Source: Diadema setosum (taxonomy: Eukaryota > Echinodermata > Echinoidea > Diadematoida > Diadematidae). Taken from it: 64,000 nucleotides of DNA. Every line of letters begins with the position of its first letter. Within the stretch, counting starts at the first letter, position 1. Both the position numbers and the translations under genes were made by a program. The notes under the pieces were generated by a model. That model did not search any database, was not told the DNA's origin, and was given only the letters and a program-made list of their open reading frames with translations. This document shows, in pieces, positions 227 to 61,062 of this stretch. The DNA lies in contig NC_092698.1 of the NCBI RefSeq assembly GCF_964275005.1, positions 22,871,809-22,935,808 on the forward strand. Direction: 5' to 3'.

Positions 227-3200
227 TCACGACAACGAAGAACAGCAACTCGATTTCCCGCCGTGTCCGTCGTCGTCCTCCTCCTCCTCGAAGGTGCTAC
301 CACCAGCTGCCTCAGCCTTCTCTCGCAGCATCTGAAGGTGGGCCGGGAAAGCAGTGATGTCAGCTGACTGACGTCGACTGGTGTCGTAGTCCTTGATCGC
401 CATCCCCGACGCACTCGTGCTCTTCGCGAGCGAAATGAGAGCCAGGGCCACCCGTAGAAAGGCCTCCGACACGCCTGCGTCAGAGAACCAGATAAGGAAT
501 GCCAGGATGCGGATATAACACATATAACTTCATTGGGTCGGGAGCTACTTGTATATATGACTGACTGTAAACATTTGTTGGCACCATATTGAAAACGCTG
601 CAAATCATTTTTTTTAACTTTATACCCCATTTTTAAAAATATTATATCCCTTTTTTTATCTTTCTTTTTTGCTCTCCCTTTTTACAGTATTATCATGGAA
701 TACTGTGATTTCTGTTTGTATTTATTCTTGTTATGCAACTGTTATGAAAATCAATGAAGACATAAATGAAAAAAAATAATAGCGTGTTTTGTTTTGTTTT
801 GTTTTTTTGGATCAAGCGTTTGTCAGTATCTTCCATGGTATACCATTCATATCATGTATATAGGACAAAGGAATGCTGCATACTTGACAATCTGCTCCTC
901 CTTCGGCGTAACAGTTGAGACTTTCAATTGATGAACATTTTTACAGTGGTATTTTTCTTCTTTCCTTCAACGGAGCGTTTGTTTACAGTCAGAAATTTTT
1001 ACTGAACATAACTGGGACTATACGGATTCATGCTATATTTGTGCTAAGCATTTGCAAATAAATATTTCATATTATTTTTCTCTGAGTGGTTCACAATTTA
1101 CAAGCTTGCTTTTTAGTGGACCTCTCAATTATTTTTTTTTTCTCAACTGAAGCATGACTTTGTATTTTTTGCCAGTATGCATGCATATATTTTATCTGCA
1201 TCATTTATCCTTTGCAAAGTCTAATGTACATGACTGTACAAGTTTATGATATAATTCCTGATTATTCCTGATTTATTCTGTGTTGCTTTTTGTTGGAAAA
1301 AGAAGAATAAAAGATAAATGAAATGAAATGAAACGCTAAGTGATATGCCTATGGATATCAATACCTTCATCTTTCAGCGCCGAGGTCTCGAAGAAGAGTG
1401 CGCCGATGCTGGCGGCGTACTGCAGGCCTTCCTCGGCCGATACCTGCCTGTTGTCAGCCAGGTCACATTTGTTGCCAAGGATGCAAATCACTGATACAGA
1501 CGGAAAGAGAAATCGAGAAAAATGGTGACCATTTTGGCCATGACTTTGAAGTCATGGCACTATACACGATCGCACCTGACAATATTTGCGGTTACCGCGA
1601 CTCCAGGGGCATTCAACTCGCAATAAACTGTAGATTTATGGTTCTTTCTTTGGCAACTAAACGATTGCTTATTGCAACGGTTGTAAACCTTTTACCCAAT
1701 GGGAATACATTCATAATTTTATGATATGTATTTTATATTTGAAGAGTTTGTTCGAAAAAACCGATAAGTCCATATTTGCCAAATGGAGATATTTGCGATT
1801 AAAGGTCAAGAAAAATAAAGAGAATAATAAGAAAATTTTTGCTTCTTTTGACCATAACTTCAAAAATGTACCTTTATATCTAGTGACCAATATATCATTT
1901 AAAAGGTATTATTTTGTACTTTATCACAGAGACCGTACTTCAAAATCTTCAAAAATGGACTTATCGGGTTTTGCAAACAAACTCTTCATTTTTTATTATT
2001 TTTGTTTAATATTTTTTTTTATTTATTAGTCACTTTATCTGAAAATGTTCATAGTATCCTGTGAAATGTTTTGCCAGATTTTCTCAGGACATTCAAGGAT
2101 CGTTTTTATTTTTGTGAAACGTAAAAAACGCTCATGATACACTCTCTTATACAAAACACGAAACTCACGCTTTCTCTAATTTGCCAACAGAAGCCTTATA
2201 ATCGACTACGCTGGTCAACTCATAAGTTAATTAAGTTTTGATAATTACCTATAGGACCGTCGATATTCTTTTCAAGCTCTGGAAAAGGGGAAAAAGGACA
2301 ATGATTATAGATGGTTATCATCCATTTAACGTTAACACAGTGTATGATTAAGCTATGCAAACCTACTCGAGGGCATTCAACAGGATGCAGATTGCGTAAG
2401 CCTTTATTACTTTTTTTTTCTTATTAGGCCTAGATCTCTTGAGAACATTCTCAGAGATATTGAAAATAAAGTGCGTCAAACTCACTGCATTTATCAATGC
2501 GACCTATATTAATTTCGCCGAAACTGACAATATTATCAACTCATTTCCTTTTCACTCTATATTTTAGTGGATTGCAGGTTAAAAGTAATATGTTGGAACT
2601 CTATATGACTTACATTGTCTTTATCACGCTATAATTCCCGCCATTCTCCACTACATGGTCATTGATTCTACACACCACTTTTCATTGAGACGTAAAGGCG
2701 AAACCCCAAAACAACACTGCGCGAAACTATACTAAACAATCATGATATAGTAATTATTACAAGCGCCAAAAATTTATAGCGTCACCAGAAGGGGGCCCGT
2801 TGCATAAAAGATACTATTATGGTAACTTTGCCATCCAATGGTAACTACCATGGTAACAATGCTCAACAGCCAATCAAAATCAAGAATTTCATGGAAGTTA
2901 CCATTGGATGGCAAAGTTACCATAATTGTAACTTTTATGCAACGGGGCCCAGTACTCAGCAGGGAGTACATGTATCGTATTCTTTAAGCTAAGCTTAGAA
3001 ACATTAGGTATCATAATCAAAGAGAGGTGATGAAAGAGAGAAAATGGTCAATTTTGTCTTCGTCTGCTTTACACTCTCTGTGTACGGTGCAAATTTATCT
3101 GGAATATCAAAGTTTTGAGAATTCTGGACTGCATCCCTCTGACCTTCTGACCACAGCTTCATGTTCTCGAAAGTGCGGGAATCCGTGATGTCGTAGACGA

Positions 3201-6200
3201 GAAAGGCCGCGTTCGACTTGCGGTAGTACATTGGCGCCATTGAGCGGAACCTCTCTTGGCCGGCCGTGTCCCACAGCTGTAGCTTGATCCTGTGATTGTC
3301 TACGTTCCTGATGATGAAACAAGCGTCACAGACAAGACTTACAAGACACGTTAGTAAGGGCATTAGTAAGAATTACCCAGACATAGTACCTTTGGAATAG
3401 TCTACTAGCCCGAGTCGATAGCCGATTGAGGGTGATTGGACTGCTTCGAAGGTACCAACTGTAGGTAGTACCGATACCATGACGTAATGCCCGAACAAAA
3501 CGACGTTCATTATTTGCTTTATAAAATGATGAACAGATTCTGGTTGTTTGATAAATCACCTTCATCGCGATGAATTAAAACGATGAAATCTCGCCCGTTC
3601 ACCACCGCGGGGTGACAGTTCTAATGACCCGTCATACTTTATGTATGAAGGGTCGTAAGCGGAATTACGTGTTAGGCAATAAAAATTCCTGGTCACGTGC
3701 TACCTGTCAACAAATCATCAAGATCTTCTTCATCATTTTATAAATATGAGTATAATCTTGTACATCTCTGCCCCATAATGAGAATGATGAATGATAATCA
3801 AAGAGTTCTATGGCAAAAACATACCCTTGATATGAGGACTCAAATAAAGATGTTTGAAACAATACAAATATCGTCATAATATTAAGGAGGATGAAGACAT
3901 CACGAATTAATGATGATGTCATAATACTTAGCAAGAGATGAAATGATGGCAATAATGATGACAAAAATTATGTAACAACATCAAATACTCATGAAATATG
4001 TTATTTATAGTTGTTCCCATTCAGGAAAAGTATAACAAAGTGCAGTAAAAAGCTGGCAAATGTCATAAATTCCACATAACAATATTTTCTCATCATAAAA
4101 TCAGCGAATTATATACATCTTTATGCTTTTAAAACATCGATAAGTCACCACTTAAAGTCTGTTAGGGCTAAACTCATGACAAAATTGAGAAAGACCGCAA
4201 TATAGTCCTTACATCAAATAAAATACATGGCCTTTGCAGCGATACATTCATGATCTCAGGAGCAGCCGATGGCAATGGATTTCAGTGGGAAAAAAAAAGC
4301 TAGTCGGCCACTTATTCCTTTTCTCTTCTTGTACATTTTGTTTGTTCGGTTTTCAGCTGCATTTCAAAACTCATCAACTTGCTATCGGTCACAATAAACG
4401 AGTATATTATATATAAGACAGAAAATGGTAGATGGATCATCATAAACATGATACTACTGTGTACCCTTTTTCTTACATTTTAAACGTAAAGAAGGATGCT
4501 CCAACGGTTGGGCTGACCTGCTTACTGAAGATTTTGCCCACATACCTCACCACAATACTCGTCTTCCCGACACCTTTTTGTGGAAAACAGAGATAAGAAG
4601 TGGGTAAGTGTACAATCATTAATTTGGAGAACGCATGCACGGAAACACAATACTCAAACACGAATATCATCAATATGTACATTTATTTATATCACACACA
4701 CGTAAGTTTGCATATGCGTGTATATGAACGTATGTATATCTGTATAGTCACTTATTGTTGCACGCGCTCACACTTCAAGGTTTCTATCTATATTCTTTCT
4801 AGTGCCACTTAAGCACTTCTGGGGTAACAAAAAAGTGTGTGTGTGTGGGGGGGGGGGGGGCAAAGTGGTGGCACCTTATGTATTCCTTTGTACGGTGCAA
4901 AAGTGGGGGGGGGGGGCGGTTCCGCCGCCCCTGTCATGATTACTTGCTTATGCTTGTATTATTATGTCAGCATGCGTATGAATAGGTATGTGTGTTTATA
5001 AATGTCTGCATTTTATAGGCCCCTATGTGCCACGTACTTTAAGGTGAAATTCATGTATTTTTTTTTTTTAATTCAGGCATAGTTAGGTGTGCAGGGATTC
5101 AAGGTAGGCGTTATTTGCAGGCAGATAAGTGAAGGAGTTTCTAAAAATTCCTCAAGAAACTTCTTTACTGTGAAGAATTTTGATTCACTGCGAAGAAGTT
5201 TGATATGATTCATGGATCCATGTTCTATTCATAGGTTAAAGCTTGGTCGCCCATAAGCGAAGCCCGGTCGTCGCGACAGAAAAAGAAGAAGAAAAAAAAA
5301 AAAACTTCTGACGATCAACGGTCCTACCAAAAACCTCTAAATTGCTGTACACTGACAACCTCTTCGGAACAAAACGAACAAAAAGAACAAGATCAAAAAC
5401 GTTTAACAACTTCAAAGAACTAACTGCCGACCAGACTAACATTGGCATAGACTGTTGTAAGGTCAAAGACCGTCCTTCGCGTGTAAGTGACCGAGAGTCC
5501 GGATGTGAATCAACAATAATAGTCTCCATGGTAACTAATAATCTCAGAGCAATTTTGCCGGTATGGCCATAGAGGGGGTGCTTTCAGTTGTTAGGCGGTC
5601 CGTGCCGGCTTAAAATGGTTTATGCATTACAACGCGGGTGAACTATTCCATGCATTAGGTGTAACATGAGCAAACACTGGTCTGCAATAAAGTCTCTGTC
5701 AGTGTCAAATTTAGATAACATGACAAAACTGTCACGTGGAAATTATGATAATGATTACTACATAGAAATACCTGTAGTTAACTGCGGCCGCAAGGACAGA
5801 CGTAAATACGTTAATGTACGACGACAAGAGTGAAAATGAATTCAGCGAGTTATTTGAATGAAGCCTTTTTATGTACTGAGTTCAGGATCGTCTAGTTCTC
5901 AGAGGTAAAATGTTTCCCTGTATCAATCCTGTATAACCATAACCTCGACATTTACAGCGCTTGAAATTTCATGACAGGCGATGGACTGTTTCTGTTTTGT
6001 ATTTACATGTAAGTTGTATCGAATAATTCTTTTCCGACAGCCTGATAGGGATAGCAACGAACCTTTCAATTCACCTGCTCCCTCCAATGAAGTTTCTAAC
6101 GCAGGAATGCACCGTGATTGTTGCTAGGTATAATAATGACAGGCCTCCGCCAGGCTTTGTTGTTAAGGACAACTTCGGTAAACAAAGCATGCATAGAATT

Positions 6201-15202: not shown

Positions 15203-30414
<15,212 letters not shown>

Positions 30415-37960: not shown

Positions 37961-39105
37961 CTAGATAAGCTTGAGAAAGCAATACAATAGTACGACCATA
38001 ATGGAACGACTAGAACACATCGATGGGAAATCATTGGAGCTTGAGATGTCTCAGAATGCCAAGGCAGCTGAGATAAAGAGGCTAACTGGGTGTGTTTTAA
38101 ATGGTTTAGATCTTATTTATGTGGACGGAAACAATTTACTGTTTATGATTCTTTTCATTCGTTTTTTAGAATTATTAATACGGGTGTGCCTCAGGGATCT
38201 ATTCTTGGACATTTACTCTTTTTGATTTATGTAAACGACATTGTCAATTCTTGCCACGAATCTCATTTTATTTTATATGCCGATGACACCTCACTCTCTC
38301 ATATGGCCTCTCATAACGATATCAATATTTTGATTGAATTTTTAAACAAAAATCTTTTTCAAGTATATAATTTATTCAAGTGCAATATGCTCACTTTGAA
38401 TATGAGTAAAACGCAATATGTATTTTTTAAACGCGGAGATGTGCAGTATAATACTGATGATATGATTTTGAAAATTGGTGATATACGTTTGAAATTTTAT
38501 GAATCTTTAAATTTTGTAGGTGTTGTATTAAATAGTAAGTTGAGTTGGAATGATCATATTGATTTTGTTTATACAAAAATTTCTCGTTTTATTGGAATTT
38601 TGAATCGACTGAAATATGATTTGCCAAGTTACATTTTGTTCGCTCTTTATAATGCTGATATCTTATCTGTTTTATCTCACTGCAATTCTATCTGGGGAAA
38701 CACGTATTCTTGCCAAACTCAAAGACTTTTTATACTACAAAAGAAAGCAATTCGAATTTGTACAAAGTCAGATTATAGAGCATCAACATCTTAACTTTTT
38801 AAATCCACACTCTTAAATTGCAAGATTTGAATAAAATGGAAATATGTTCCTTTATGCAACGTTTTCATGCTAAAACTCTTTCACCTTATTTACAAAATAT
38901 GTTTTCTGTGAACTCTAATGTACATAATAATCATACCAGATCGTCAAATCATTTTCATCAATGGCGTTTTTTAACTGACAAATATAAATATTCGCTGCGT
39001 CATACTGGTCCCGTTTTATGGAATACTTTAGAACTGAGCAAATTTAATATACAGTTTAATATTTTCAAAAGACAGTACAAGAAAATATTGATTAGTAAGT
39101 AAGTA

Positions 39106-40365: not shown

Positions 40366-40383
40366 AAAGAAAAAAAAAAATTG
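40366..40383 (-). terminator. Pol III T-run terminator of tRNA-Lys
   Basis: Just after the tRNA 3' end the minus strand reads CAA followed by ten or more T residues, then CTTTC repeats. RNA polymerase III terminates at such runs. Confidence 0.75.
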
Positions 40384-40456
40384 CGCCCAATGTGGGGCTC
40401 GAACCCACGACCCTGGGATTAAGAGTCCCATGCTCTACCGACTGAGCTAACCGGGC
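40384..40456 (-). tRNA. tRNA-Lys (anticodon CTT)
   Basis: The minus strand gives a complete 73-nt tRNA without an intron. It starts GCCCGGTTAGCTCAGTCGG, has anticodon loop ACTCTTAAT with CTT, T-arm GGTTCGAGCCC and discriminator G. It is nearly identical to the animal Lys-CTT consensus; position 7 is T and pairs with an A at 66, a compensated change. A-box and B-box promoter sequences are intact, and a run of T follows the 3' end on the minus strand as a Pol III terminator. It should be functional. Confidence 0.96.
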
Positions 40457-40924: not shown

Positions 40925-41845
40925 GACGTACATTTGTACATATACTCTGCCAATCCCGCTCGCCTGCCTGGTATCTGATCCTAGCGCCTTTATAGTTTTG
41001 GAGCTACTCGCCTACTAGTAGGACTACTTCTTGATACCACTCACTAAGATGGGGGTTTTCTGCAGTAAGATTAATTAGAGATTATACAGTTGTACAGGGT
41101 ACCGGTACCGGTACTAAAGCAGTGGTGTACTAGTGATCACTGCTACGTTGTCTACGACAGGCAAAATCGTGAAATCGGCCCCACCGCAGCGAAGTGTGCG
41201 TGCATCCGTGCGTAAGAAAGCGGGTTAGATTTCGGTTTACTCTAAAGTTACCGTTAGTAGGGTTGTATTTACTGGTTAAATTTAATAGTCCAGGGACATT
41301 AGGAAGTCCTTCCAATAATAAAAGGAAGAAAGAAAAGAAAGAGCAAGGGAAAAACATGCTATGTCGTGGAAATCGGCCCGCCACGAGAAGGAAGGATACT
41401 CTTACTGTACGTGAAAGAAAAGCCCAATGCTATTTAACATGGTATGTCACACAGTTCAGTGGGGCTGGATTCATGAGCAAGCTTGTAACAGCTTGTAATA
41501 CAATGTAGAAGGTTCTGAGTATGCCCGTGCGACCAACCAAGGGAGCCTTGGTAAGACAAATAAAATCTCTCCGGTAGGGGGTACATGTATATGGGTGGGT
41601 ACCATGTGAAGGCTTAAAGAGCAAGTCCACCTTCGTACACACGTGGACTGAGTGAATGCAGCTGACATTGTATATTATCAACACATCAGTGAAAGTTTGG
41701 GGAAAATCGGACAATCCGTTCAAAAGTTATAGGCATTTTCAAAGGGATTGTACAGTTCGGTTGAGATAGGGCTTCATGTTTCCAACATATTATGTTTTGA
41801 TTATGATTTTTTTTTTTTTTTTTTTAAGATAATATCTTGGGTAGT

Positions 41846-42562
41846 ATGGAGTCTTAAGTAGACAGGAAAGTTATGGACAATTATTGCTCATGTATTCATA
41901 AAGCAGGGAAAAGAACCGGGCTCAACAGCCATCTTTTACCGATTCTACACACCACAGCCTCAAACTATAGGAAACTGAAACTTAGATGGGCAGGTCCAGG
42001 GCCAATACATTAATTGCCACACGGGTAGGTCCTGCTCCCAAGTTGAATATTGAAATGCGATAGAGCCTCCGACCAGCGACCTCATCCGTGCACAAGGCCA
42101 GTGTTGCACACTGAAGTAATCTTTCCACTTTTACCTACATTTTTAACCCTACAAGATAGTCTCCCATTAAATTGGGCATAACTCCACATATTCACATGTG
42201 TTAACACAGTGAAAACATTTCGATCTAGGCCTATAGTTTATTATAAAACTGCTGAGATCTCAACTACTGCCGTGACTGAACTATAGAGGCAAAACTACTG
42301 GATCAACATATAGTCCTTTTATCTTCTAGAATACCAGGTTGCACTCACAGTGCATGCCAATTCAGCAGGAATAGCAACTGTTTCGAACAATACAGCAATT
42401 CAACCAAGGGGACCAGCAGCTTGCCACACCCCATTCTTGCCCATCTTTTTCTCAATACGTTCAAAACAACTAAAGAAGTTCAAGGGGCACTGTACTGGGG
42501 TGTCATTACGTGAGCTACCTTATCTTCTATAAAATCAAATAAACCTGCAAAAATCTGTTCCC
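41846..42562. repeat. Long direct repeat, left copy
   Basis: It is shared with 46265-46915 in the same orientation, including AAGCAGGGAAAAGA, CCGGGCTCAACAGCCATC, ATTCTACACACCACAG, CTAAAGAAGTTCAAGG and AAAAATCTGTTCCCC. Small gaps separate the copies. It could be a segmental duplication or an LTR-like arm of a non-autonomous fossil element; no coding domain was seen between the arms. Confidence 0.75.
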
Positions 42563-42789
42563 CGACATCTCCCCCACTTGTTGCCTAGCTGACTATTGAC
42601 AATCACAAAAAAAAAATTAATCTGTTAGAACATATCGGCCTACAATATACATTGTTCCTCGGACTGCTTGGGTATGGAAAGAAAAGATGTGGCTTCTTGC
42701 CATCTCATTTCAGTGGAATAAGGTTATACAGTCATAATGTCACTTCCGAAAATATCAACTCGGTCACTTTGCCCCTCATTGACTCATGT

Positions 42790-45700
42790 TGATCCGGATC
42801 TGGCAGCAGTGAAGGGGCCAGCGTCCCCCTCAGTCATCTGATGTGTCAACAGTAGCAAAAACACTGATGTCTCCCTGCTGGCCTCTGGCAGCAGTGAAGG
42901 GGTCAACATCCCCCTCAATCATCCGATGTGTGAACAGTTGCAACAACACTGATGTCTCCTGGCTGACCTCTGGCAGCAGTGAAGGGGTCAGCATCCCCCC
43001 AGTCATCCAATGTGTCAACAGTCGCAGCAACACCCCACTGACCTCTGGAAGCAGTGAAGGGTTCAGCATCTCCCTCAGTCATCCAATGTGTCAACAATCT
43101 CAGCAACCCTGATGTCTCCCAACTGACCTCTGGCAGCAGTGAAGGGGTCAGTGTCTCTGATCCCTCAGTTATCTGACGTGTCAACAGTCTCAGAAACACT
43201 AATGTCTCCCTGCTGACCTCTGGCAGCAGTGAAGGGATTAGCATCTCCGTCAGTCATCCAATGTGTCAAAAGTCGCAGCAATACTGAGGCCTCCCTGCTG
43301 ACCTCTGGCAGCAGTGAAGGGGTCAGCATCCCCCTCAGTCATCCACTGTGTCAACAGTCACAACAAGACCGCACCGATCTCTGGAAGCAGTGAAGGGGTC
43401 AGCATCTCCCTCAGTCATCCAATGTGTTAACAGTCGCAGCAACACTGATACCTCGCTGACCTCTGGCAGCAGTGAATGTGTCAGCAACCCCCTCAGTCAT
43501 CCGATGTGTCAAGATTCGCAGCAACACTGATGTTTCCTAACTGACCTCTGGCAGCAGTCAAGGGGTCAGCATCTCCCTAACTCATCCAAGGTGTCAACAG
43601 TCGCAACAACACTGATGTCTTCCCGCTGACCTCTGGCAGGAGTGAAGGGATTAGCATCTCCCTCAGTCATCCTACTTAGTGTGTCAAGAGTTGCAGCAAC
43701 ACTGATGTCTCCCTGCCGACATCTGGGAGCAGTGAAGGGGTCAACATCCCCCTCAGTCATTCGATGTTTGAACAGTTGCAACAACACTGATGTCTCCTGG
43801 CTAACCTCTGGCAGTAGTGAAGGGGTTAGCATCCCCCCAGTCATCCAATGTATCAACAGTCGCAGCAACACCCCACTGACCTCTGGAAGCAGTAAAGGGT
43901 TCAGCATCTCCCTCAGTCATCCAATGTGTCAACAATCTCAGCAACCCTGATGTCTCCCAACTGACCTCTGGCAGCAGTGAAGGGGTCAGCATCACCCTCG
44001 GTCATCCGACATGTTAAAGTCTCAGAAACACTGCTAGCTGTCTCCCCGTTGACCTCTGGCAGCAGTGAAGGGGTCAGTGTCTCCCTCAGTCATCCGATGT
44101 GTCAACAGTCGCAGCAAAACTGATGTCTCCCCACTGACCTCTGGCAGCAGTGAAGGGGTCAGCATCCCCCTCAGTCATCCACTGTGTCAACAGTCACAAC
44201 AAGACCCCACTGACCTCTGGAAGCAGTGAAGGGCTTAGCATATCTCCCACAGTCATCCAATGTGTTAACAGTCTCAGCAACACTGATGTCTCCCCACTGA
44301 CCTCTGGCAGCAATGAAGGGGTCAGCATCCCCCTCAGTTATCCGATGTGTCAACAGTCACAACAACACCCCGCTGACCGCTGGAGGCAGTGAAGGGGTCA
44401 GCATCTCCCTCAGTCATCCTATGTGTTAAAGGTGCATGGTCGCGGTGTTTTAGTCAAATGCGTATGCGGGCACACGGCGCAAGTTTCCTATAGAAACCTA
44501 CGCTATCGACTCCTCTTTAGTGCTTACGCTGTGGCCCACTTCCCCGAGTCCGAAGAAGTCCGATACACTGTAGTCAGTGGTCCGATCACAGTTCGGCTCA
44601 TGATTCGGCTGAGGGGGGTGACAGCTTCAGCAAACTTCTTTGGTGATGTCATAATAAGAAGCACATATGCATGCACCCTGGCATTACTACAGACTGTGCG
44701 ATGCGCAGAGAAGACAACAAAGGCAACATTACTTAGCAACACCTACGCACTCTACTCTTGATGACAGGTCAACTTCGGTAATCTTCGTATCAATGCTAAT
44801 GGTGATCCGCAGTATCATCGACAGTGCCCTGTACACTAACGGGACTATGCACCTTTAACAGTCGCAGCAACACTGATGCCTCCCCACTGACCTCTGGCAG
44901 CAGTGAAAGTGTCAGCATCCCCCTCAGTCATCCGATGTGTCACGATTCGCAGCAACACTGATGTCTCCCAACTGACCTCTGGCAGCAGTCAAGGAGTCAG
45001 CATCTCCCTCAGTCATCCGATGTGTCAACAGTCGCAGCAACACTGATGCCTCCCCGCTGAGCTCTGGCAGCAGTAAGGGGGTCAGCGTCTCCCTCAGCCA
45101 TCCGATGTGTCAACAGTCGCAGCAACACTGATGCCTCCCTATTGACCTCTGGCAGCAGTGAAGGGGTCAGCATCTCCCTCAATCATCCGATGCGTCAACG
45201 GTCACAACAACAATGATGTCTCCCTCAGTCATCTGATGTGTCAACAGTCGCAGCAACATTGATGCCTCCCCGCTGACCCTTGGCAGCAGTGAAGGGGTGA
45301 GCATCTCCCTCAGTCATCAGATGTGTCAAAAGTCACAACACTGATGTCTCCCCGCTGAGCTCTGGCAGCAGTGAAGGGGTCAGCGTCTCCCTCAGTCATC
45401 CGATGTGTTAACAGTCGCAGCGGCACTGACCTCTGGCAGTAGTAAAGGGAGCAGTGTCTCTCTCAGTCATCTGACGTGTCAACAGTCGCAGCAACACCCC
45501 GCTGACCTCTGGAAGCAGTGAAGGGGTCAGCATTTTTCCCAGTCATCCAATGTGTCAACAGTCACAACAACACTGATGTCTCCCCACTGACCTCTGGCAG
45601 CAGTGAAGGGGTCAGCATCTCCCTCAGTCATCCACTGTGTCAACAATCACAACAACACTGATGTCTCCTGTCTGAGCTCTGGCAGCAGTGAAGGGGTCAG

Positions 45701-46240
45701 CATTTACCTTGGTCATCCGATGTGTCAACAGTCACAGCATCACTAATGTCTTCCCACTGACCTCTGGCAGCAGTGCAGTGGTCAGTGTCTCCCTCAGTCA
45801 TCCAATGTGTCAACAGTCACAGCAACACTGATGTCTCCCCACCGACCTCTGGCAGCAGTGAAGGGGTGAGCATCTCCTTCGTTCTGTTACCCGATGATGT
45901 GTCAACAGTCGCAGCATCACTGATGTCTCCCCACTAAGCTCTGGCGGCAGTAAGGGGGTCAGCATCTCCCTCAGTCATCTGATTTGTCAACAGTCGCAGC
46001 AAAACTGATGTCTCCCCACTGACCTCTGGCAGCAGTGAAGGGGTCAGTGTCTCCCTCAGTCATCCGATGTTTGAAGAGTCACAGCATCACTAATGTCTCC
46101 CTGCTGACCTCTGGCAGCAGTGAAGGGGTCAGTGTCTCCCTCAGTCATCCGATGTTTGAAGAGTCACAGCATCACTGATGTCTCCCTGCTGACCTCTGGC
46201 AGCAGTGAAGGGGTCAGCGTCTCTTTCAGTCAGTCGTCAC
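42790..46240. repeat. Minisatellite, ~84-bp unit, about 36 copies
   Basis: A recurring unit, CTGACCTCTGGCAGCAGTGA then AGGGGTCAGCATCTCCCTCA, then GTCATCCGATGTGTCAACAG and TCGCAGCAACACTGATGTCT, is repeated with steps mostly of 75 to 88 bp. Units differ by substitutions and short deletions. Most units lack stop codons on the minus strand, which produces protein-like open frames, but length changes shift the frame and I do not regard it as a gene. A 425-bp MITE interrupts it at 44430. Confidence 0.92.
44430..44854. mobile_element. piggyBac-type MITE, 425 bp, TTAA target duplication, inside the minisatellite
   Basis: TTAA flanks both ends (44426-44429 and 44855-44858). Across the element the minisatellite word GTGTTAACAGTCGCAG is split exactly at its TTAA. 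The inverted ends are AGGTGCATGGTCGCGG and, read from the right, AGGTGCATAGTCCCGT. The interior has no transposase. A TTAA target is characteristic of piggyBac-mobilised elements. Confidence 0.85.
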
Positions 46241-46264
46241 AGCAACCCATCCTCGCCACTATTT

Positions 46265-46915
46265 TGTTAGTGTCTTTAGACAGGGATGTTGTGGGTAATT
46301 GTTGCTCATTTATTCATGAAGCAGGGAAAAGAGCCGGGCTCAACAGCCATCTTTTAGGGATTCTACACACCACAGTCTCGTGGGAAACTGAAACCTATGG
46401 GCAGGCCCAGGCCAATGGTTGCCACACGGATGCTCCGAAGCTGATGCGGTAGAGCTGTCAACCAGTGACCCCACCTACACACAGGGTGTTGCACACTGAA
46501 GCAATCTTTCCACCTTTTCTAACCTTACAAATAGTCTCCATTAAATTCACATCATTCACACGTTATAACACAATGAAAACAATTCGATCTATGGTTGAAA
46601 ACTGCTGAGATCTCAACTACTGGACTATGATATACATGTAGAGGCATAACTACTGAATCAAAAGCCTTATTATCTTCCAAAATACCACGTTGCACTCCCA
46701 GTGCATGCCAACCCAAAAGAAGGGACAACCACCTTTTTTCGAACAATACAGTAATTTGCCTAAGGGAACCAGCAGCTTGCCACACCATATTCTTGTCCCA
46801 CCTTTTCTCTGTACGTGTTTAAAACAACTAAAGAAGTTCAAGGAGCACTGTACTGGGGAGTCATTACGTAAGCTAACTTACAAAACCAATCAAACCAGTA
46901 AAAATCTGTTCCCCA
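46265..46915. repeat. Long direct repeat, right copy
   Basis: It is the partner of 41846-42562 and ends at GTTCCCCAGCAAT, exactly where the second-level MITE resumes with AATGAGAAACC. Similarity to the left copy is high but far from identical, so the pair is not recent. Confidence 0.75.
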
Positions 46916-47655
46916 GCAATAATGAGAAACCTGTTATGATAAATGAAAGGGCATATGATTCTAACAGGAATTCAAAATTTATTTGATGAAAATTTGTTTT
47001 GAAATGGCTGAGATATCCCAAACCATCCCAATAAAAGGTGGAACCCACCTTTTATTAGAATCGCTTTGTTTTATTTTGTTTTTGGACTCGGCCATTTCAA
47101 TACCGACTGTCATGAAATAAAGTTTTTCGTCTTAAAATTGTATGTTCTTTAACATTTCATGAAGTGGTTTCTAAGTATCTCACAAAAAAGTTTTGAGCTG
47201 AATCCTCGCCTCGACCAATACTATACCATCCCTTCAAAGTATCTGCGCAGTCACTGCTGGATGAGAAGACTACTACAGTGTATGATGTCACATGCGTAGA
47301 ACGATATAAGGAAAAATTATAAAGACAATTTCACGAATTTTTTTTTTTTTTTTTGGAAAAAAAGTACACATTTTGTTTACTTGTCACTGACGTAAAAACT
47401 TAAATTCCCCCTGCCTTCTGAAAGAGGTAAGTCGATGTTCTTTTATTTTGCGAGAAAGGTGATATGTTGAATTTTCTTAATATTTTCTTTAATCGTTCAA
47501 CACATTTGACATCACAAACTGTAGTAGTCTTCTTATCCAGCAGTGACTGAACAGAAGCTTCAAAAATTCATAACTTTTGACAAATTTTCCTCAAACTCTC
47601 ACTGATGTGTTCTACAAACAAATGAAAATAACTCGGCCATCCTGAAACCTTCATA

Positions 47656-48182
47656 ATAGAATGTGTACATGTGGATCAAGACCAATATGAATGCAGCAAC
47701 ATTATTTGTAGAACACATTGCAGTAATAGTTTAGGGAAATCGAACAATGATAAATCCCGGGCCGTTCAAAAGTTATGAATGTTTAATGTATCTGCGCAGT
47801 CACTGCTGGATGAGTTGAGTGTGTGATGTCACAGGCGTTGAACGAGATAAGGAAAAACTTAAGATTATTTCACATATACATTTTTTGAAAAAGTGCACGT
47901 CACCAACGTATGTTAGGAAGAATATTATTCCCCTGCCTTCTGAAAGAGGCATTAATGTCAAGTATTCTTTTATTATGCGAGAAATGTGAAACTATGTTGT
48001 CGTTGAATATTCTTTCTATACACATATGACATCATAAGCTATAGTAGTCTTCTCATCCAAACAGGAACTTCAAAAGATCAAACTTTTGAATGGATTGATT
48101 TTCCTCAAACTCTTACTGATGTGTTCTACTAATATTGCCGCGTTCACTCAATCAATATGTCTATAAAGTTGAACTTGTCCTA
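47656..48182. mobile_element. Outer palindromic MITE, copy B (uninterrupted)
   Basis: The left arm (GTGTACATGTGGATCAAG, GAATGCAGCAACATTA, TGTAGAACACATTGCAG) is mirrored by the right arm (CTTACTGATGTGTTCTAC, GTTCACTCAATCAATATG, AACTTGTCCTACCC). The inner inverted pair is GTCACTGCTGGATGAG against a decayed partner. It lies head to tail with copy A. Confidence 0.6.
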
Positions 48183-49450: not shown

Positions 49451-49616
49451 ATAATTCATCTATCAAAAAAAAAAAAAAAAAGCCAAACAAACAAACAAAA
49501 AAAATACGCATATGAATACAACTACAATGCTAACAGTTGTAACTGCATGCAATAAACTCAAGACAGATGTTGACTGCACCTATCATGCTACTCCAAAACT
49601 ATTCCGCAAAAAAGTG

Positions 49617-49862
49617 AAGAGTTTGTTTGCAAAAACCGATAAGTCCATTTTTGAAGATTTTGAAGTACGGTCTCTGTCATAAAGTACAAAATTATACCTT
49701 TTAAATGATATATTGGTCATTACATATAAAGAACATTTTTGAAGTTATGGTCAAAAGAAGCAAAAATTTTCTTATTATTCTCTTTATTTTTCTTGACCTT
49801 TAATCGCAAATATCTCCATTTGGCAAATATAGACTTATCGGTTTATGCAAACAAACTCTTCA
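49617..49862. mobile_element. MITE, ~246 bp, TIR GAAGAGTTTGTTTGC (copy 2, inverted)
   Basis: It has the same ends and interior as 1741-1990, read on the other strand. Shared words include CCGATAAGTCCAT, TATATTGGTCA and TTTTGAAGTACGGTCTCTG. Confidence 0.75.
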
Positions 49863-52370
49863 AGTATAGTCAATCATGTATAACGCCTCTTCAACACTGG
49901 ACAACAGTACTGCAAAAATCATTATAAAAATATTATGATACTGATTAACCATAACTGTGTAGTAACAATACACAAAATCCTGATAGAGAAACACACCGTC
50001 ACTCCTCCAGAGCTGTAACTCGTGGATCACCCTCTAGTGACATCAAAACTTTGGTTCTCCCATTACACGAAACAGAATCCTGATTAGGTTAATCCATCCC
50101 CAAAACTACCACTACCACTTTCTCAGGCCATGCACTATCATTTTATTTTCAAGCACACGCTTACGATATGTGGTCTGAAGCATTTTCTCCTTACAAACAT
50201 TCCCCTTTTTTGGCGAAATATCGGAAAATGTATTGCTCCCGTTCATGTAGCGGACATTCCATGATATACCATCATGATTATTACAGATGATCCATTCATA
50301 CACGAGCTATGTATTCTGATCCATAATTTGTATTCCAGTGAGTTACAGTATTAAGTGAATGATATAGAAGCGATGTTATATAAATGCTTGAATTGGCATA
50401 GAAATGCACGATGTAGAGTTGTGTCCAATAAAAGGATAAGCTGTAGACCAGCCTAAAAATGAATAAACTTCAAAAGAAAGAGAAAATATCCTCTACAAAA
50501 TGATACAAAAATGACAAAATTGTATAAGAAATAAGGAAGATATACGACATTTTGAAATTTCAATATTTTTCGGAAACACTTCTTGATTAGTCCTTATGAA
50601 TATTCAAATGAGCAAGTTGACGATGCCATGCTCTCACATTGGTATGAGAACGTGCCTTTACTTGTATTGGCAAAAAAAAAATAATAATCTGGATTTCACT
50701 ATATAACATACATAAAAAAAAAAATAGATGTGAGGGTTAATTTTGGGGGTGTATTTCTTCTTTAATCAATTCCTGCATAAAAATGTTAGCAAGTTCCTAG
50801 AAACAGATATAGCATCACATATATAACAATTCAAATACTATAGCAAAACAGCCATTACCTGCATATAAGATACTGTAGCCTTTTAATATCTTGCAGGATT
50901 TTGTTCACCTGCAACTGAGTCTGAAAGAATAGACTAACCCAAACTTAGCACGTGCACGGTAAAGTACCTTACTTCAAAAATAAAAACATCGTACGCTCCA
51001 CTGCCCGCTGAGGAAGTTCGTTCCTCACTCTTCCTTACCCATTCCAAACCATTTCATACGGTGTACCACACTCATAACAAAGTAAACATGTAAAGTGCAT
51101 TGTATTCAACATAACATTACTAAACACAAGTGAATAGCCGGTTTCTCTTCGTTAACCAGCTACAAAACTAGTATAAATCCGTGATGCCTGGGAGGTGAGA
51201 TTCACACATCCCCGGTGATGTACTCTCTTCGTGTACAGCACCTAGACACACGACATATCCCATATTGGCTATATAGACTGGACACATATACTCTAGTACT
51301 ATGATGCGACTCATGCCATACCACCAAGTGTCATCGAGAGTCATATTCCCTTTGTTTATCTACCTTAAGTCACATAGTATCTAGTACAAAAGTATATCCT
51401 AACTTACTAATACTATACATAGAATCATCGAGCGTACCTCACAAGACCAGCTCTTTGGATGACTCATTCCAGCAATAGCGTATCCAGTAATCCAACGCAT
51501 TCAAAAACCACGAGCACATCTCAGGAGTGGTGGTCAAGACTTTCCCAAAGGGCCAGTTTGTCTGGCCACTTCACCTCATGAGGGATGCAATATCAATCCA
51601 CCAACTACTTGTCAAGCAGTCACATAACCAACTTTCTACCCGATCAATTGCCTTTTACATTGTACATGTATGCAACTGCAACACACTCTTGAGAACAAAA
51701 ACAAAATACATGTCTTACTATTCAGACTGTGGGGCAGTACTTACTACTATATTTCACCTTTGAATTAGTGGAAGAATATAGAGTGATGAAACTTACTGAT
51801 CAGCTGCTCTCTATCGCTCTTTTAGCATAATTTATAGTGCCTACCACTGTACTCCAGATCCTCCCTTATCTCTGACGGGGGGGGGGGGGGGGGGGGGGTA
51901 GGGGTGGGGGGGGGGGAGGGGTCTCACCTCCCTGCTCTGACACTCTGGCCAAACCTGCTTTCCACACTTGCGTTACACTTTGGCTAAACTCGTATTATGG
52001 GGATAGTGCACATTTCCACTCTCCTACAATCTCATCCCGACAATTGGCATTACGATGTACACACGATGTACACTCTGTTGTCCATCGTATCGTTTGTGAA
52101 AATAAATGCACTTCCATAACGCAAACAAAATTACTTCCATAAAACCCATCTGTGTGTCATAAGTCATACATCCTTGTTGTGCAATGTCTATTGATAATCA
52201 ACGGCAAACTTTGGCAATCTGTGGGAATTATCATGTAATCTTTTTGTTGTCTGTTGGGATTGACGAGGAAACGTCTTGGAACTTGCTCGATGATCAAAGG
52301 AAAGATATGCATATAAAAAAGTTCTAAAAAAAAGGCTTCAACCCAATTTTCTGTTGCCACTAAAAGCCCC
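49863..52370. other. No recognisable gene
   Basis: I see AT-rich unique-looking DNA with no supportable exon, a ~130-bp repeat at 50465-50590 that recurs at about 56558-56680, and G runs at 51876-51916. Confidence 0.5.
50465..50590 (+). repeat. Dispersed ~120-bp repeat, copy 1
   Basis: It contains CTTCAAAAGAAAG, ATGACAAAAT, ATAAGAAATAAGGAAGATAT and TTTGAAATTTCA..ATTTTTCGGAAA. It is matched in the same orientation at about 56558-56680. Confidence 0.5.
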
Positions 52371-57174: not shown

Positions 57175-57296
57175 AAGTTAAAACACGAATGATTTAGCAT
57201 GGAAGTTTTAAGTTCGTGTGTGAGTGGGAACGGGGGGGGGGGGGGGGCTTGGGATGGGTAGGATCCTATGGGGATTGTGATTTGGGGTGCTGTTCG

Positions 57297-57595
57297 TTTT
57301 TCCGAAGGTTCGTTATTCTGAAGGTTCGTTGATCCGAAACACACAAATTCCCTACACCTACAGGTTCGTAAATCCGAAATGTTTAATGCGAACATTTGTG
57401 GCGTTATTCCGAAGGTTCGTTATTCCGAAGGTTCGTTGATCCAAAAATAAAATAGGGTTCACTATTCCGAAGGCCCATTAATCCGAAAATGAAATATGGT
57501 TCGTTACTCCGAAGGTTCGTTAATCCGAAAAATGAATAAGGCTCGTTAATCCGAAAATGAAATGAGGTTCGTAATTCCGAAAATGAAATAGAACT
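57297..57595 (+). repeat. TTCCGAAGGTTCGTTAATCCGAAAA array, forward arm
   Basis: Units of ATTCCGAAGGTTCGTT and AATCCGAAAATGAAATA alternate about eight times with variation. The same units in reverse complement form the array at 60607-61060. The 104-codon Asn/Glu/Pro-rich frames across it are repeat artefacts. Confidence 0.85.
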
Positions 57596-57978
57596 CACTG
57601 TAATGACAAAATACGTTGTCGTAATAAAAAACTGCTTGGATATTACGCAATGAAAATTCGATATTCCTCTGCTGATGGGAAGGATGATACACGTGTATAT
57701 TTTCAGGTAAAGCACGTCGTGTTCCGTGAAGAAGTGTCGTTGATCAAGAATCTTGATTTTAATTCAGTCTGAACAATAACCTGAGCGATTGGATTTATAA
57801 GATTTATAGAGCGTTGGGGACTGTATGATTTTTCTATAGCCTATATCTTCAGACACCCTCACATTTTTAATGCTAATAACAGTAACGACAATAAGACTAA
57901 TGCAGAGAATGATTAATACTATTGGACAAGACTAAAAAGTAACATTGATTGTGGGAATCGCAATAATTATCATTTACT

Positions 57979-58165
57979 AACCTTAACCCTAACCCTAACC
58001 CTAACCCTAACCCTAACCCTAACCCTAACCCTAACCCTAACCTAACCCTATACCCCGGACCCTTTCCTCTTCCCTAACCCTAATCCTAATTCTGAACCTA
58101 ATCCTAACCCTAACCCAAACTCTAACCCTAAACCTAATCCTCACCATAATCTTTACTCTAACCTT
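57979..58165. repeat. Interstitial telomere-like tract, (CCCTAA)n
   Basis: About ten CCCTAA units are perfect at 57979-58044. They are followed by a degenerating part (CCTAATCCTAAC, AACTCTAACCC and similar) to about 58165. This is the vertebrate/echinoderm-type TTAGGG telomere repeat on the other strand. Confidence 0.93.
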
Positions 58166-58168
58166 ATC

Positions 58169-58496
58169 ACAGAGACTCCAACTCTCCCGCTTTCGACGGG
58201 AGATCTCCCGCCGAAAACACATAATTTTTTGCAAAATCCCCCGTTCTCCCGCTTGAGATTTGATTTCTCCCGCCCTGGCTCTTTCCCGTTGCTTTAGTGA
58301 TTTCTTACTTATTGTCATATCGTATGTTGAAAAATAAACCTTACATAGCACGAGAGAGCATCTAGAGCCCTAAGACTGGACCCCGGCCGCAAGGAATTTC
58401 GCGCTTCGCGCACATCAACTTGGAGTCTCCCGTTTGCTAGGGGCTTCAGGCGGGAGAATCTCCAGATCAGAAGGTGCTGGGGGTTGGAGTCTCTGT
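58169..58496. mobile_element. MITE, 328 bp, TIR ACAGAGACTCCAAC, TATC duplication, in the telomere-like tract
   Basis: The inverted ends ACAGAGACTCCAAC and GTTGGAGTCTCTGT are perfect over 14 bp. TATC flanks both sides (58165-58168 and 58497-58500). The interior repeats CTCCCG words, and the sequence after the right duplication resumes ACTAACC. Confidence 0.8.
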
Positions 58497-58616
58497 TATC
58501 ACTAACCAGTATTTAGCGGGGGGGGGGGGGGGTAATTGCCTTAATATACACTGCGGCAGAGCCAGGAGGAACTGGCAGGGGAAGGGGGAAGGGGAATAGA
58601 AAGAAACGTGATCTTA

Positions 58617-58666
58617 AATACATGGTACAGTTTCGGTTGAGATAGGGCTTCAGGTTTCCAACATGT

Positions 58667-58728
<62 letters not shown>

Positions 58729-59088
58729 TGTGTGTGTGTGTGTGTGTGTGTGTGATGAGAAACCTCTTATGAAATATGGAAGAGCATAATGTAGGAGGAA
58801 TTCAAAGTTTATTTGATGAAACTTGGTTTTGAAATGACTGAGATATCCAAAAATATAAGGCAATCCTAATAAAAGGTGGGACCCACCTTTCATTAAGATC
58901 GCTTTGTTTTATTTTGTTTGGGATATCTCAGCCATTTCAAAACCAATTTTCATCGAATGAACTTTGAATTCCTTGCCAGTAGAATTACGTGCTCTTTCAA
59001 TTTTTGATAAGAAGTTTCTCATTATCTCACAAAAAAGTTGGAAACCTGAAGCTCCATCTCAGCCAATACTACATGTAGCAACCCTTTG
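58617..59088. mobile_element. MITE of the second-level family, with (GAT)n(GT)n expansion
   Basis: The arms GGTTGAGATAGGGCTTCAGG + TTTCCAAC and GTTGGAAACCTGAAGCTCCATC + TCAGCC are inverted copies of about 45 bp. A second inverted pair inside (TTTGAAATGACTGAGATATCC and GGATATCTCAGCCATTTCAAA) encloses AAAGGTGGGACCCACCTTT. (GAT)n at 58671-58728 and (GT)n at 58729-58754 have expanded within it. It is the intact relative of the split copy at 41745-47232. Confidence 0.8.
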
Positions 59089-60280
59089 ATTTTGAATGCC
59101 TTCCCTTTTTAAGATGGTGACCGCGGCTCCCCCCCCCCCCAAAAAAAAAAAAAAAAAATCTTAAGTTAAAAAAAGTGATATGCATGCAAACTCACAACTC
59201 GTTTTTTCACTTAACAATGGGTACCCTAACTTGAATATCCAAACAGTTCACCTACCTATGTGTCCAAAATCGGGTTTTCCACAGAAAAGTTGCAGTTTCT
59301 TTTCGTACACAATAGTCATGAAGTTTTATACATACATGTAGGCCTATATATGCATTTCTTCTTAGAAAATAGATAACTAAATGCACATGAAAGGCGTAGA
59401 GTAAAGTCAAGGGAATAGATAAAAATTAAAAGAGATGAGAAAATGAAAGAAATGCACTAGCTGTAATAATAAATGACAGGGAACAAGCTGAAATACAATG
59501 TGGGCCTACATTAAATTCCACTCTTCACAAGAGATTCACTGTTTCTGATGGCTGTAATAACACAAGAACGTATAGATTGCAATATCCTGGGCTTGAACCG
59601 AATGCAAGCATGACTATAGAACTTTTTCAGAACCCTGCGAACGTATTACGACTATAGTTTAAGTGTCATGGCAAAGGCCATATCATAATGGAGTGCATGC
59701 TAAAACGCAATTTACTTTACCTCACGAGAGCTGGAAGTGATACATTGCACTGGCTTACATTTTGAATTTCATGTGTTACCATGTCACACAAACAAGTGGA
59801 AAACTGCACTTAACTTCTCATTGAATTCATGCACAAATTATTTCTTACCTATAGTGACTGATCGGTAGGACAAGTTCGATTACATTCCACTCTTCACAGT
59901 GAAGTTTATTAAAAGAGATGTTACATTTGAAATCTGCTTGTTGAGTATATATGAATGTTTATTTGTTTAATAGCCTTTATTTTTAAGTCCACGCATGACT
60001 GTATGTGTGTGGGTTTTTTTTCCTGCTTGAGACATGTTGGAGTGGCAAAATATTTATGGTAATCATTTCAAAATGAATGTATTACCCTGTCAATTATGAA
60101 GAAGTGAAGAAGGAGTGGGAGGGGCGAGTTCATCCTCCGAAGGAGAAAATACCTCTACTTTCATCATTGATAATACATAAATTATGCACAAATGAAATTA
60201 CAAATTACGACGGCATTCTACGTCGCTGATAAAAGTTTGTATGGAATCGCATGTGTTTGTGTGTGCCTGTTTACGTACAC

Positions 60281-60314
<34 letters not shown>

Positions 60315-60606
60315 ATGTGTTTATGAGTCCAAAGAGAGTATGAGTATGCTGGCATCTCCTTTTCAAAGTGAACATGACTCTCATGAATCGTTATGATGAT
60401 AATGATGAATTTTAGACTACCGACAAACGTGAGGCTATTCAATAGGCGAAGATAATGGGGGTGAGAGCGAATAAGATGGGCTACTTCAAAGGTTTTATGT
60501 ACTTTACCTCAATACACGTATTCACACATTATGCTCACACGTATGAACGAACGTATAAGACAGTACAGTAATTACATCACCATATTTTGTCACTACAAGA
60601 ATTTTA
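59089..60606. other. No recognisable gene
   Basis: It has C and A runs near 59131-59158 and a (GT)n tract at about 60281-60303. The rest is AT-rich without a supportable exon. Confidence 0.5.
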
Positions 60607-61062
60607 CTTTATTTTCGGAATAAACGAGCCTTATTTTATCTTTGGATTTACGAACCTTTATTTTTGGATTAACGAACCTTATTTCATTTTCGGAGTAACA
60701 AACCTTCGGAATAACGAACCTTATTTTGTTTTCGGATCAACGAACCTTCGGAATAACGAGCCTTATTCTTCATTTTCGGATTAACGGACCTTCGGAATGA
60801 CGAACCTTATTCTATTTTCGGATCAACGAACCTTCGGAATAACAAGCCTTATTTCATTTTCGTTTTAACGAATCTTCGGAATTACGAACCCTATTACATT
60901 TTCGGTTTAACGAACCTTCGAAATAACAAACCTTATTTCATTATCGGATTAGCGAACCTTATATCATTTTCAGATTAATGAACCTTCGGAATAGCGAATC
61001 TTATTTCATTTTCGGATTAACGAACCTTTGGAATAACGAACCTTCGGAATAACGAGCTGTAA
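60607..61062 (-). repeat. TTTTCGGATTAACGAACCTTCGGAAT array, reverse arm
   Basis: About a dozen alternating units of TTTTCGGATTAACGAACC and TTCGGAATAACGAACCTTAT are the reverse complement of the array at 57297-57595. The two arms face each other across 3.0 kb. Confidence 0.85.

Follow-up and report, generated by a model that had tools for sequence, protein, structure and literature searches.

A minisatellite inside nested mobile elements of Diadema setosum, probably carried by a gene-less LTR retrotransposon

The locus and its nested insertions

The window, by which we mean the whole stretch of 64,000 nucleotides analyzed here (Diadema setosum, assembly GCF_964275005.1, contig NC_092698.1, positions 22,871,809 to 22,935,808 of the forward strand), has a G+C content of 39.5%, is eukaryote-like, and contains a Ras/Rab-type GTPase frame recognized by a Pfam match at 3004-3372 on the minus strand. 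A truncated reverse-transcriptase frame (38072-38794; Pfam RVT_1, E 3e-11) and a tRNA-Lys(CTT) gene (40383-40456, minus strand) are located about 3 kb and about 1.2 kb, respectively, to the left of the region described below. This region, from 41617 to 48182, consists of four insertions nested one inside another, in a layout that agrees with the original prediction for this DNA. Repeat-rich genomes commonly contain nested insertions; the present example is instructive and well preserved. Comparison of the window with itself by BLAST, in which pairs shorter than 50 bp and those confined to 42700-46300 were left out of the list, recovered a pair of direct repeats in the centre, the matches between the pieces of an inner miniature element (MITE) and 58.6-59.0 kb, and the match between the right part of an outer MITE (copy A) and its neighbor (copy B). 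In addition, clean uninterrupted sites were obtained upon joining the flanks at the three inner junctions, which are marked by TTAA, ATAAT, and TTCAAAG.

The outermost layer is the interrupted palindromic MITE copy A (41617-47625, the right coordinate being approximate), whose left end reads TTAA followed by AGAGCAAGTCCACC and whose right terminus is not recognizable. Once its pieces were joined at TTCAAAG, copy A shared 428 of 503 sites with copy B (147 gap columns) and 392 of 502 sites with its own reverse complement (106 gap columns); the short left piece is visible in this joined alignment only and is absent from the self-comparison list. Copy B, for which the originally predicted limits of 47656-48182 are kept and whose left terminus is not recognizable, had been described as an unsplit copy right beside copy A. 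Its kinship with copy A is upheld by the alignment, whereas the abutting ends of the two copies appear by eye to be missing: no recognizable termini were seen in the facing ends (about 47625-47670), perhaps as a result of deletion at the junction. About 45 bp of unrelated sequence, also judged by eye, separates the two copies at 47625-47670.

The inner MITE is present as a left piece (41745-41833, ending with ATAAT) and a right piece (46919-47232), both on the plus strand and both aligning to an uninterrupted relative at 58617-59088, with 327 of 403 sites identical and 80 gap columns when the joined pieces are compared with 58.6-59.1 kb. In that unsplit copy, a TGA/TG microsatellite (58670-58754) adjoins the spot at which the other copy was entered by the central block. 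On the outer sides of the two pieces, TTCAAAG occurs at 41738-41744 and at 47233-47239 (plus strand), and upon joining at these heptamers the outer palindrome continues in a form that resembles copy B and the opposite arm of copy A. When each edge was allowed to shift by 4 nt, 121 of 20,000 random placements gave a 7-bp match. TTCAAAG is likely to be the target duplication of the inner MITE. The claim that this MITE, flanked by TTCAAAG, splits the outer palindrome thus stands insofar as the joined palindrome reads on, while the exact extent of the duplication and the MITE termini are uncertain because the 58.6-kb copy ends with ...CCCTTTG, so that CAAAG may in part be sequence of the MITE itself.

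The innermost insertion is a TTAA-flanked MITE of 425 bp (44426-44858, body 44430-44854), situated inside one unit of a minisatellite, with TTAA at 44426-44429 and 44855-44858 and with matching ends AGGTGCATGGTC and AGGTGCATAGTC. Joining its flanks connects ...CCTATGTGTTAA to CAGTCGCAGC... and yields an in-phase array unit, and the array across the restored TTAA site reads GTGTTAACAGTC, a variant of the unit's GTGTCAACAGTC. As overlapping rows reported by Tandem Repeats Finder (TRF) also place the array both to the left (42799-44426) and to the right (44857-46232) of this element, the prediction that this element splits the minisatellite is confirmed.

Terminal repeats, priming sites and interior of the central block

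The block that interrupts the inner MITE extends from 41834 to 46918, is read on the minus strand, and measures 5,085 bp with the TTAA element, or 4,656 bp without this element and one TTAA. It is bounded by ATAAT on the plus strand at 41829-41833 and 46919-46923, and this 5-bp duplication is flush with the TG start of the right-hand terminal repeat. Joining at ATAAT connects AAGATAAT to GAGAAACC, where the intact arm of the 58.6-kb relative reads GAGATAATGAGAAAC, and the inner MITE across the joined site becomes AAGATAATGAGAAACC, much like the relative's intact arm near 59.0 kb. Among random placements, a 5-bp match was found in 451 of 20,000 when the left edge was free by 8 nt and in 24 of 20,000 when it had to be flush. 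The proposal that a direct-repeat block splits a MITE with an unsplit relative at 58617-59088 is thus borne out, since removal of the block restores the MITE and the joined pieces align to the relative.

The direct repeats of about 650 bp that had been noticed on both sides of the minisatellite were recovered by BLAST (41859-42563 versus 46277-46914, 74.7% over 716 columns, E 7.6e-129) and could be refined to a 3' long terminal repeat (LTR) of 734 bp at 41834-42567 and a 5' LTR of 658 bp at 46261-46918, which on the minus strand read TGTCGGGG...CCCAAGAT and TGCTGGGG...CAAAAT, respectively. On that strand they align almost end to end, with 562 identical sites, 76 mismatches, 110 gap columns, and a K2P distance of 0.131; a global alignment gave a K2P distance of 0.134 over 641 sites, with a bootstrap range of 0.108-0.167 for all sites. 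The 3' LTR is the longer one by 76 bp, and many indels distinguish the two. Both start with TG and end with AAAAT or AAGAT rather than CA; TG...CA termini are usual but not universal in LTRs and hence were not used as defining. AATAAA is found at position 605 of about 659, near the end of the 5' LTR, while the 3' LTR has AATACA at the corresponding place and an AATAAA elsewhere, at position 326. The block has, like LARD-type elements, two long direct terminal repeats and a target duplication of 4-6 bp with a restorable target.

Two candidate priming sites were identified at the inner edges of the LTRs. The putative primer binding site TGGCGAGGATGGG (46246-46258, minus strand) lies 2 nt after the 5' LTR and resembles tRNA-Ser(GCT) with a gap of 3 nt: the primer for human tRNA-Ser(GCT) is given in the pertinent part of PMC9072684 as beginning with TGGCGACGAGGATGGG, and 13 of 13 positions agree if three nucleotides are skipped. 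Among the 1,551 TGG positions that the two strands of the window contain, TGGCGAGGATGGG alone reached this score, for which the reference was a human tRNA and not one of the host's own. The scoring used one tRNA species and a gap of up to 3, both chosen after the site had been seen, which makes this null a lenient guide; by our estimate, the probability of a chance match stays small after allowing for about 45 tRNA species and a few start positions. The putative polypurine tract AAGTGGGGGAGA (42568-42579, minus strand) is flush against the 3' LTR, AAGTGGGGGAGA being followed directly by TG, and a tract of such quality precedes 53 of 9,480 TG positions in the window, by a rule that was likewise set after the site was seen and provides a similarly lenient guide.

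The interior between these sites is occupied almost completely by the minisatellite (42799-46245, minus strand; the end reported by TRF is 46232), which has a unit of about 85 bp with 76-bp variants and is split by the TTAA element. The unit with which the array starts, a partial one (GTTGCTGTGAC...GACTGACTGAAAGAGACGCTGACCC), directly abuts the primer binding site, and only 231 bp of non-array sequence (42568-42798, minus strand, polypurine tract included) lies between the array and the 3' LTR. Stops were present in the one minus-strand frame of this short stretch that was read. When the interior was read in all six frames, the longest open stretch had 122 codons on the plus strand and 116 codons on the minus strand. 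Of the six open reading frames searched against Pfam in the window, three overlap the element; two of them had no match and none reached the cut-off, the weak match being TPR_TEX10 (E 0.0057) for 46108-46452, below its curated cut-off. Neither a coding remnant nor a reverse transcriptase was seen in the central element in this partial search of frames and three open reading frames. The array itself is unlikely to be coding sequence, as every 85-bp unit changes the reading frame and the interior has short frames only.

Self-comparison detected no second copy of the central block in the 64-kb window. Pattern scans of a virus DNA collection with pieces of the LTR, the outer MITE, and the inner MITE gave 0 matches, and so did a scan of a prokaryote contig collection with the inner-MITE piece, an absence that says little in prokaryote and virus DNA. 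A 19-base array motif matched four virus contigs once each, which was taken as chance, and no paper in the literature searched contained sequence motifs from the MITEs or from the array.

Arrival and growth of the minisatellite

The LTRs, the target duplication, the priming sites, and the short frames correspond to the parts of a non-autonomous LTR retrotransposon, and we consider it highly probable that the block at 41834-46918 represents one LTR retrotransposon, gene-less and in minus orientation, that carries the minisatellite. The LTR ends other than CA, the gapped primer site, the AATACA of the 3' LTR opposite the AATAAA of the 5' LTR, the length and indel differences between the LTRs, and the single copy in the window speak against this reading, and our confidence in it was lowered very slightly because the null models for the priming sites used after-the-fact rules.

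The array starts right after the primer site; therefore, four insertions are counted, and the array would be the cargo of the third. The original prediction had named the minisatellite as a layer of its own in the nest; the number of insertions and their sequence stand, while the minisatellite is better regarded as part of the direct-repeat element than as a separate insertion. The relative chronology (outer MITE copy A, inner MITE, LTR element with array, and 425-bp TTAA element) is supported because empty sites are restored at the three inner junctions. According to this model, the palindromic TTAA-type MITE would have been entered by the second MITE with duplication of TTCAAAG, the latter would then have been entered by a gene-less, non-autonomous LTR retrotransposon in minus orientation with duplication of ATAAT, and the TTAA MITE of 425 bp would later have inserted into one minisatellite unit of the LTR element. 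Before its insertion, a serine tRNA paired with the site next to the 5' LTR would have served as primer on the LTR-driven RNA, a reverse transcriptase supplied in trans would have copied this RNA, the polypurine tract would have primed the second strand, and the product would have integrated with a 5-bp duplication, as a large retrotransposon derivative. The leader or internal region, made up of the tandem array of about 85-bp units, would have been brought along and would then have duplicated further in place; other copies of the element presumably exist as well.

Whether the array was already present upon insertion can be approached by comparing its units with the LTRs. From 37 anchor matches, 35 units were retained (two matches in one 82-bp unit were merged and the last edge piece of 114 bp was dropped), and one compound unit of 131 bp was left out, resulting in 34 units and 561 pairs. 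The mean pairwise K2P distance was 0.181, or 0.154 without CpG sites. Because 448 of the 561 pairs exceed the LTR-LTR distance (383 of 561 without CpG sites), several units were probably already present when the LTR element inserted, which is suggestive but not proof, as array units may mutate faster than LTRs. Later duplication within the array, apparently in place, is shown by the units themselves, because u22 and u32 are identical over aligned sites and u1 and u2 agree at 84 of 85.

A possible, if rather doubtful, variant of the retrotransposon reading is that the element carried at most a very short array when it inserted and that the minisatellite grew in place afterwards. These young duplications would fit such growth, and so would the median unit distance without CpG sites (0.150), which falls within the LTR bootstrap range that was computed from all sites; the excess of unit pairs over the LTR-LTR distance argues against it, subject to the same reservation about mutation rate, as does the filling of nearly all of the interior by the array, as repeats do in some described elements. 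A further extension of the retrotransposon reading appears fairly unlikely, namely that the minisatellite unit is the element's own leader after the primer site, which was multiplied (perhaps through template switching in reverse transcription) to the point of taking the place of the entire coding interior; retrotransposition itself would then generate minisatellites and scatter them, ready-made, across this genome.

Two explanations without a retrotransposon were also weighed. It is quite improbable that an element or event of another kind, for instance a DNA transposon of composite structure or a segment duplicated in tandem with expansion of an array in between, was inserted in the MITE and resembles an LTR element by chance: the termini other than TG...CA, the gap in the primer site, the lack of a coding remnant in the partial search, and the one copy in the window would be in keeping with such an event, but three features that are each rare in the window, namely the target duplication, the primer site, and the polypurine tract, are found together where they would be expected. 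Least probable is that the inner MITE carried or seeded the minisatellite, a possibility raised in the original prediction, and that the direct repeats arose by a local duplication around the array. This explanation could draw on the low-complexity part of the MITE at the insertion point, with its TGA/TG microsatellite in the 58.6-kb relative, and on MITEs with internal tandem arrays such as Xenopus Xmix with its amplified internal segment Xstir (in the part of PMC6004289 on these elements). It is not supported by the position of the array wholly within a block that has terminal repeats, a 5-bp target duplication whose removal with the block restores the MITE, and a primer binding site and polypurine tract placed where an LTR element needs them; moreover, the window self-comparison listed neither the repeats nor the array as matching the MITE or its 58.6-kb relative.

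With the retrotransposon reading preferred, a minisatellite in a MITE becomes a readable history, in which the array most likely arrived as the cargo of a gene-less retrotransposon. The two LTRs could serve as an internal clock for timing the growth of the array, and the TTAA insertion as a later time mark. If other copies share the array, retrotransposition would directly spread minisatellites within this lineage, similar to what was suggested by the Culex authors in the discussion of such repeats in PMC3286476.

Related elements and neighboring repeats

Gene-less LTR elements carrying tandem repeats are unusual but have already been described. In the sections of PMC3286476 on Culex quinquefasciatus, 38 coding-less LTR families (cqUNK) have tandem repeats between LTRs that are more than 98% identical, together with a primer site, a polypurine tract, and a target duplication, whose length is given in the 38 table rows as 5 bp (26 rows), 4 bp (3 rows), or not determined (9 rows); a Ser primer site is present in 11 of the 38 rows by our count from the table. 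The Diadema element shares all of these parts, and coding sequence, absent from those families, was not seen here in the partial search. Unlike the cqUNK families, however, its LTRs differ at 76 of 638 aligned sites with 110 additional gap columns, and its array begins right at the primer site and leaves little of the interior unoccupied, in what is a comparison of features. Ser primer sites and 5-bp duplications are also common in the Mag lineage of Ty3/gypsy elements, three Culex families of which have tandem repeats in the 5' UTR according to the same sections (PMC3286476). The Ser-type primer site and 5-bp duplication found here are similar, whereas no reverse transcriptase, by which a lineage would be assigned, was seen in the element, and its LTRs of 658 and 734 bp are longer than the 119-304 bp of the Mag rows listed (PMC3286476). 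Similarly, Retand and related plant elements are LTR retrotransposons with internal tandem arrays, some of them non-autonomous, but as described in the relevant part of PMC11963269 their arrays lie between pol and the 3' LTR in a plant lineage with coding regions. In animals, small coding-less LTR elements (TRIMs) were reported in bivalves in the corresponding part of PMC6934838. No echinoderm element of this kind appeared relevant by title or abstract among the matches listed in the literature search.

With respect to the TTAA elements, the 425-bp MITE has the TTAA duplication of Kolobok/T2 elements, and piggyBac likewise uses TTAA. Its termini begin with AG, as in Kolobok/T2 MITEs, and read AGGTG at both ends, unlike the T2 motif AGGRR given in the portion of PMC6004289 on these families. 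Outer copy A shows TTAA followed by AGAGC, and not AGGRR, at the left only, its right terminus not being recognizable; its left terminus AGAGCAAG resembles the AGAGCAAG of Xenopus XKol A6 (PMC6004289).

Several other repeats were observed in the window. Two arrays of 16/26/42-bp units (GGTTCGTTATTCCGAAG...), at 57290-57590 and 60600-61060, are inverted with respect to each other and bracket 57.6-60.6 kb, an interval in which the unsplit MITE relative at 58.6 kb is also situated. The similarity extends by eye slightly past the arrays, as in foldback-type transposons with tandem-repeat arms, and no target duplication was seen by eye around 57290-61060. This arrangement is reminiscent of the sea urchin TU elements, none of which appeared in the literature search. 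About 29 degenerate copies of CTAACC, presumably a permuted form of the common animal telomere repeat, are located at 57977-58149. A dispersed repeat of 261 bp (1734-1994 and 49609-49868, in opposite orientations, 95% identical) is the most alike of the listed pairs excluding simple repeats, and another inverted pair of dispersed repeats, at 19447-19814 and 28098-28452, is 90% identical over 369 columns.
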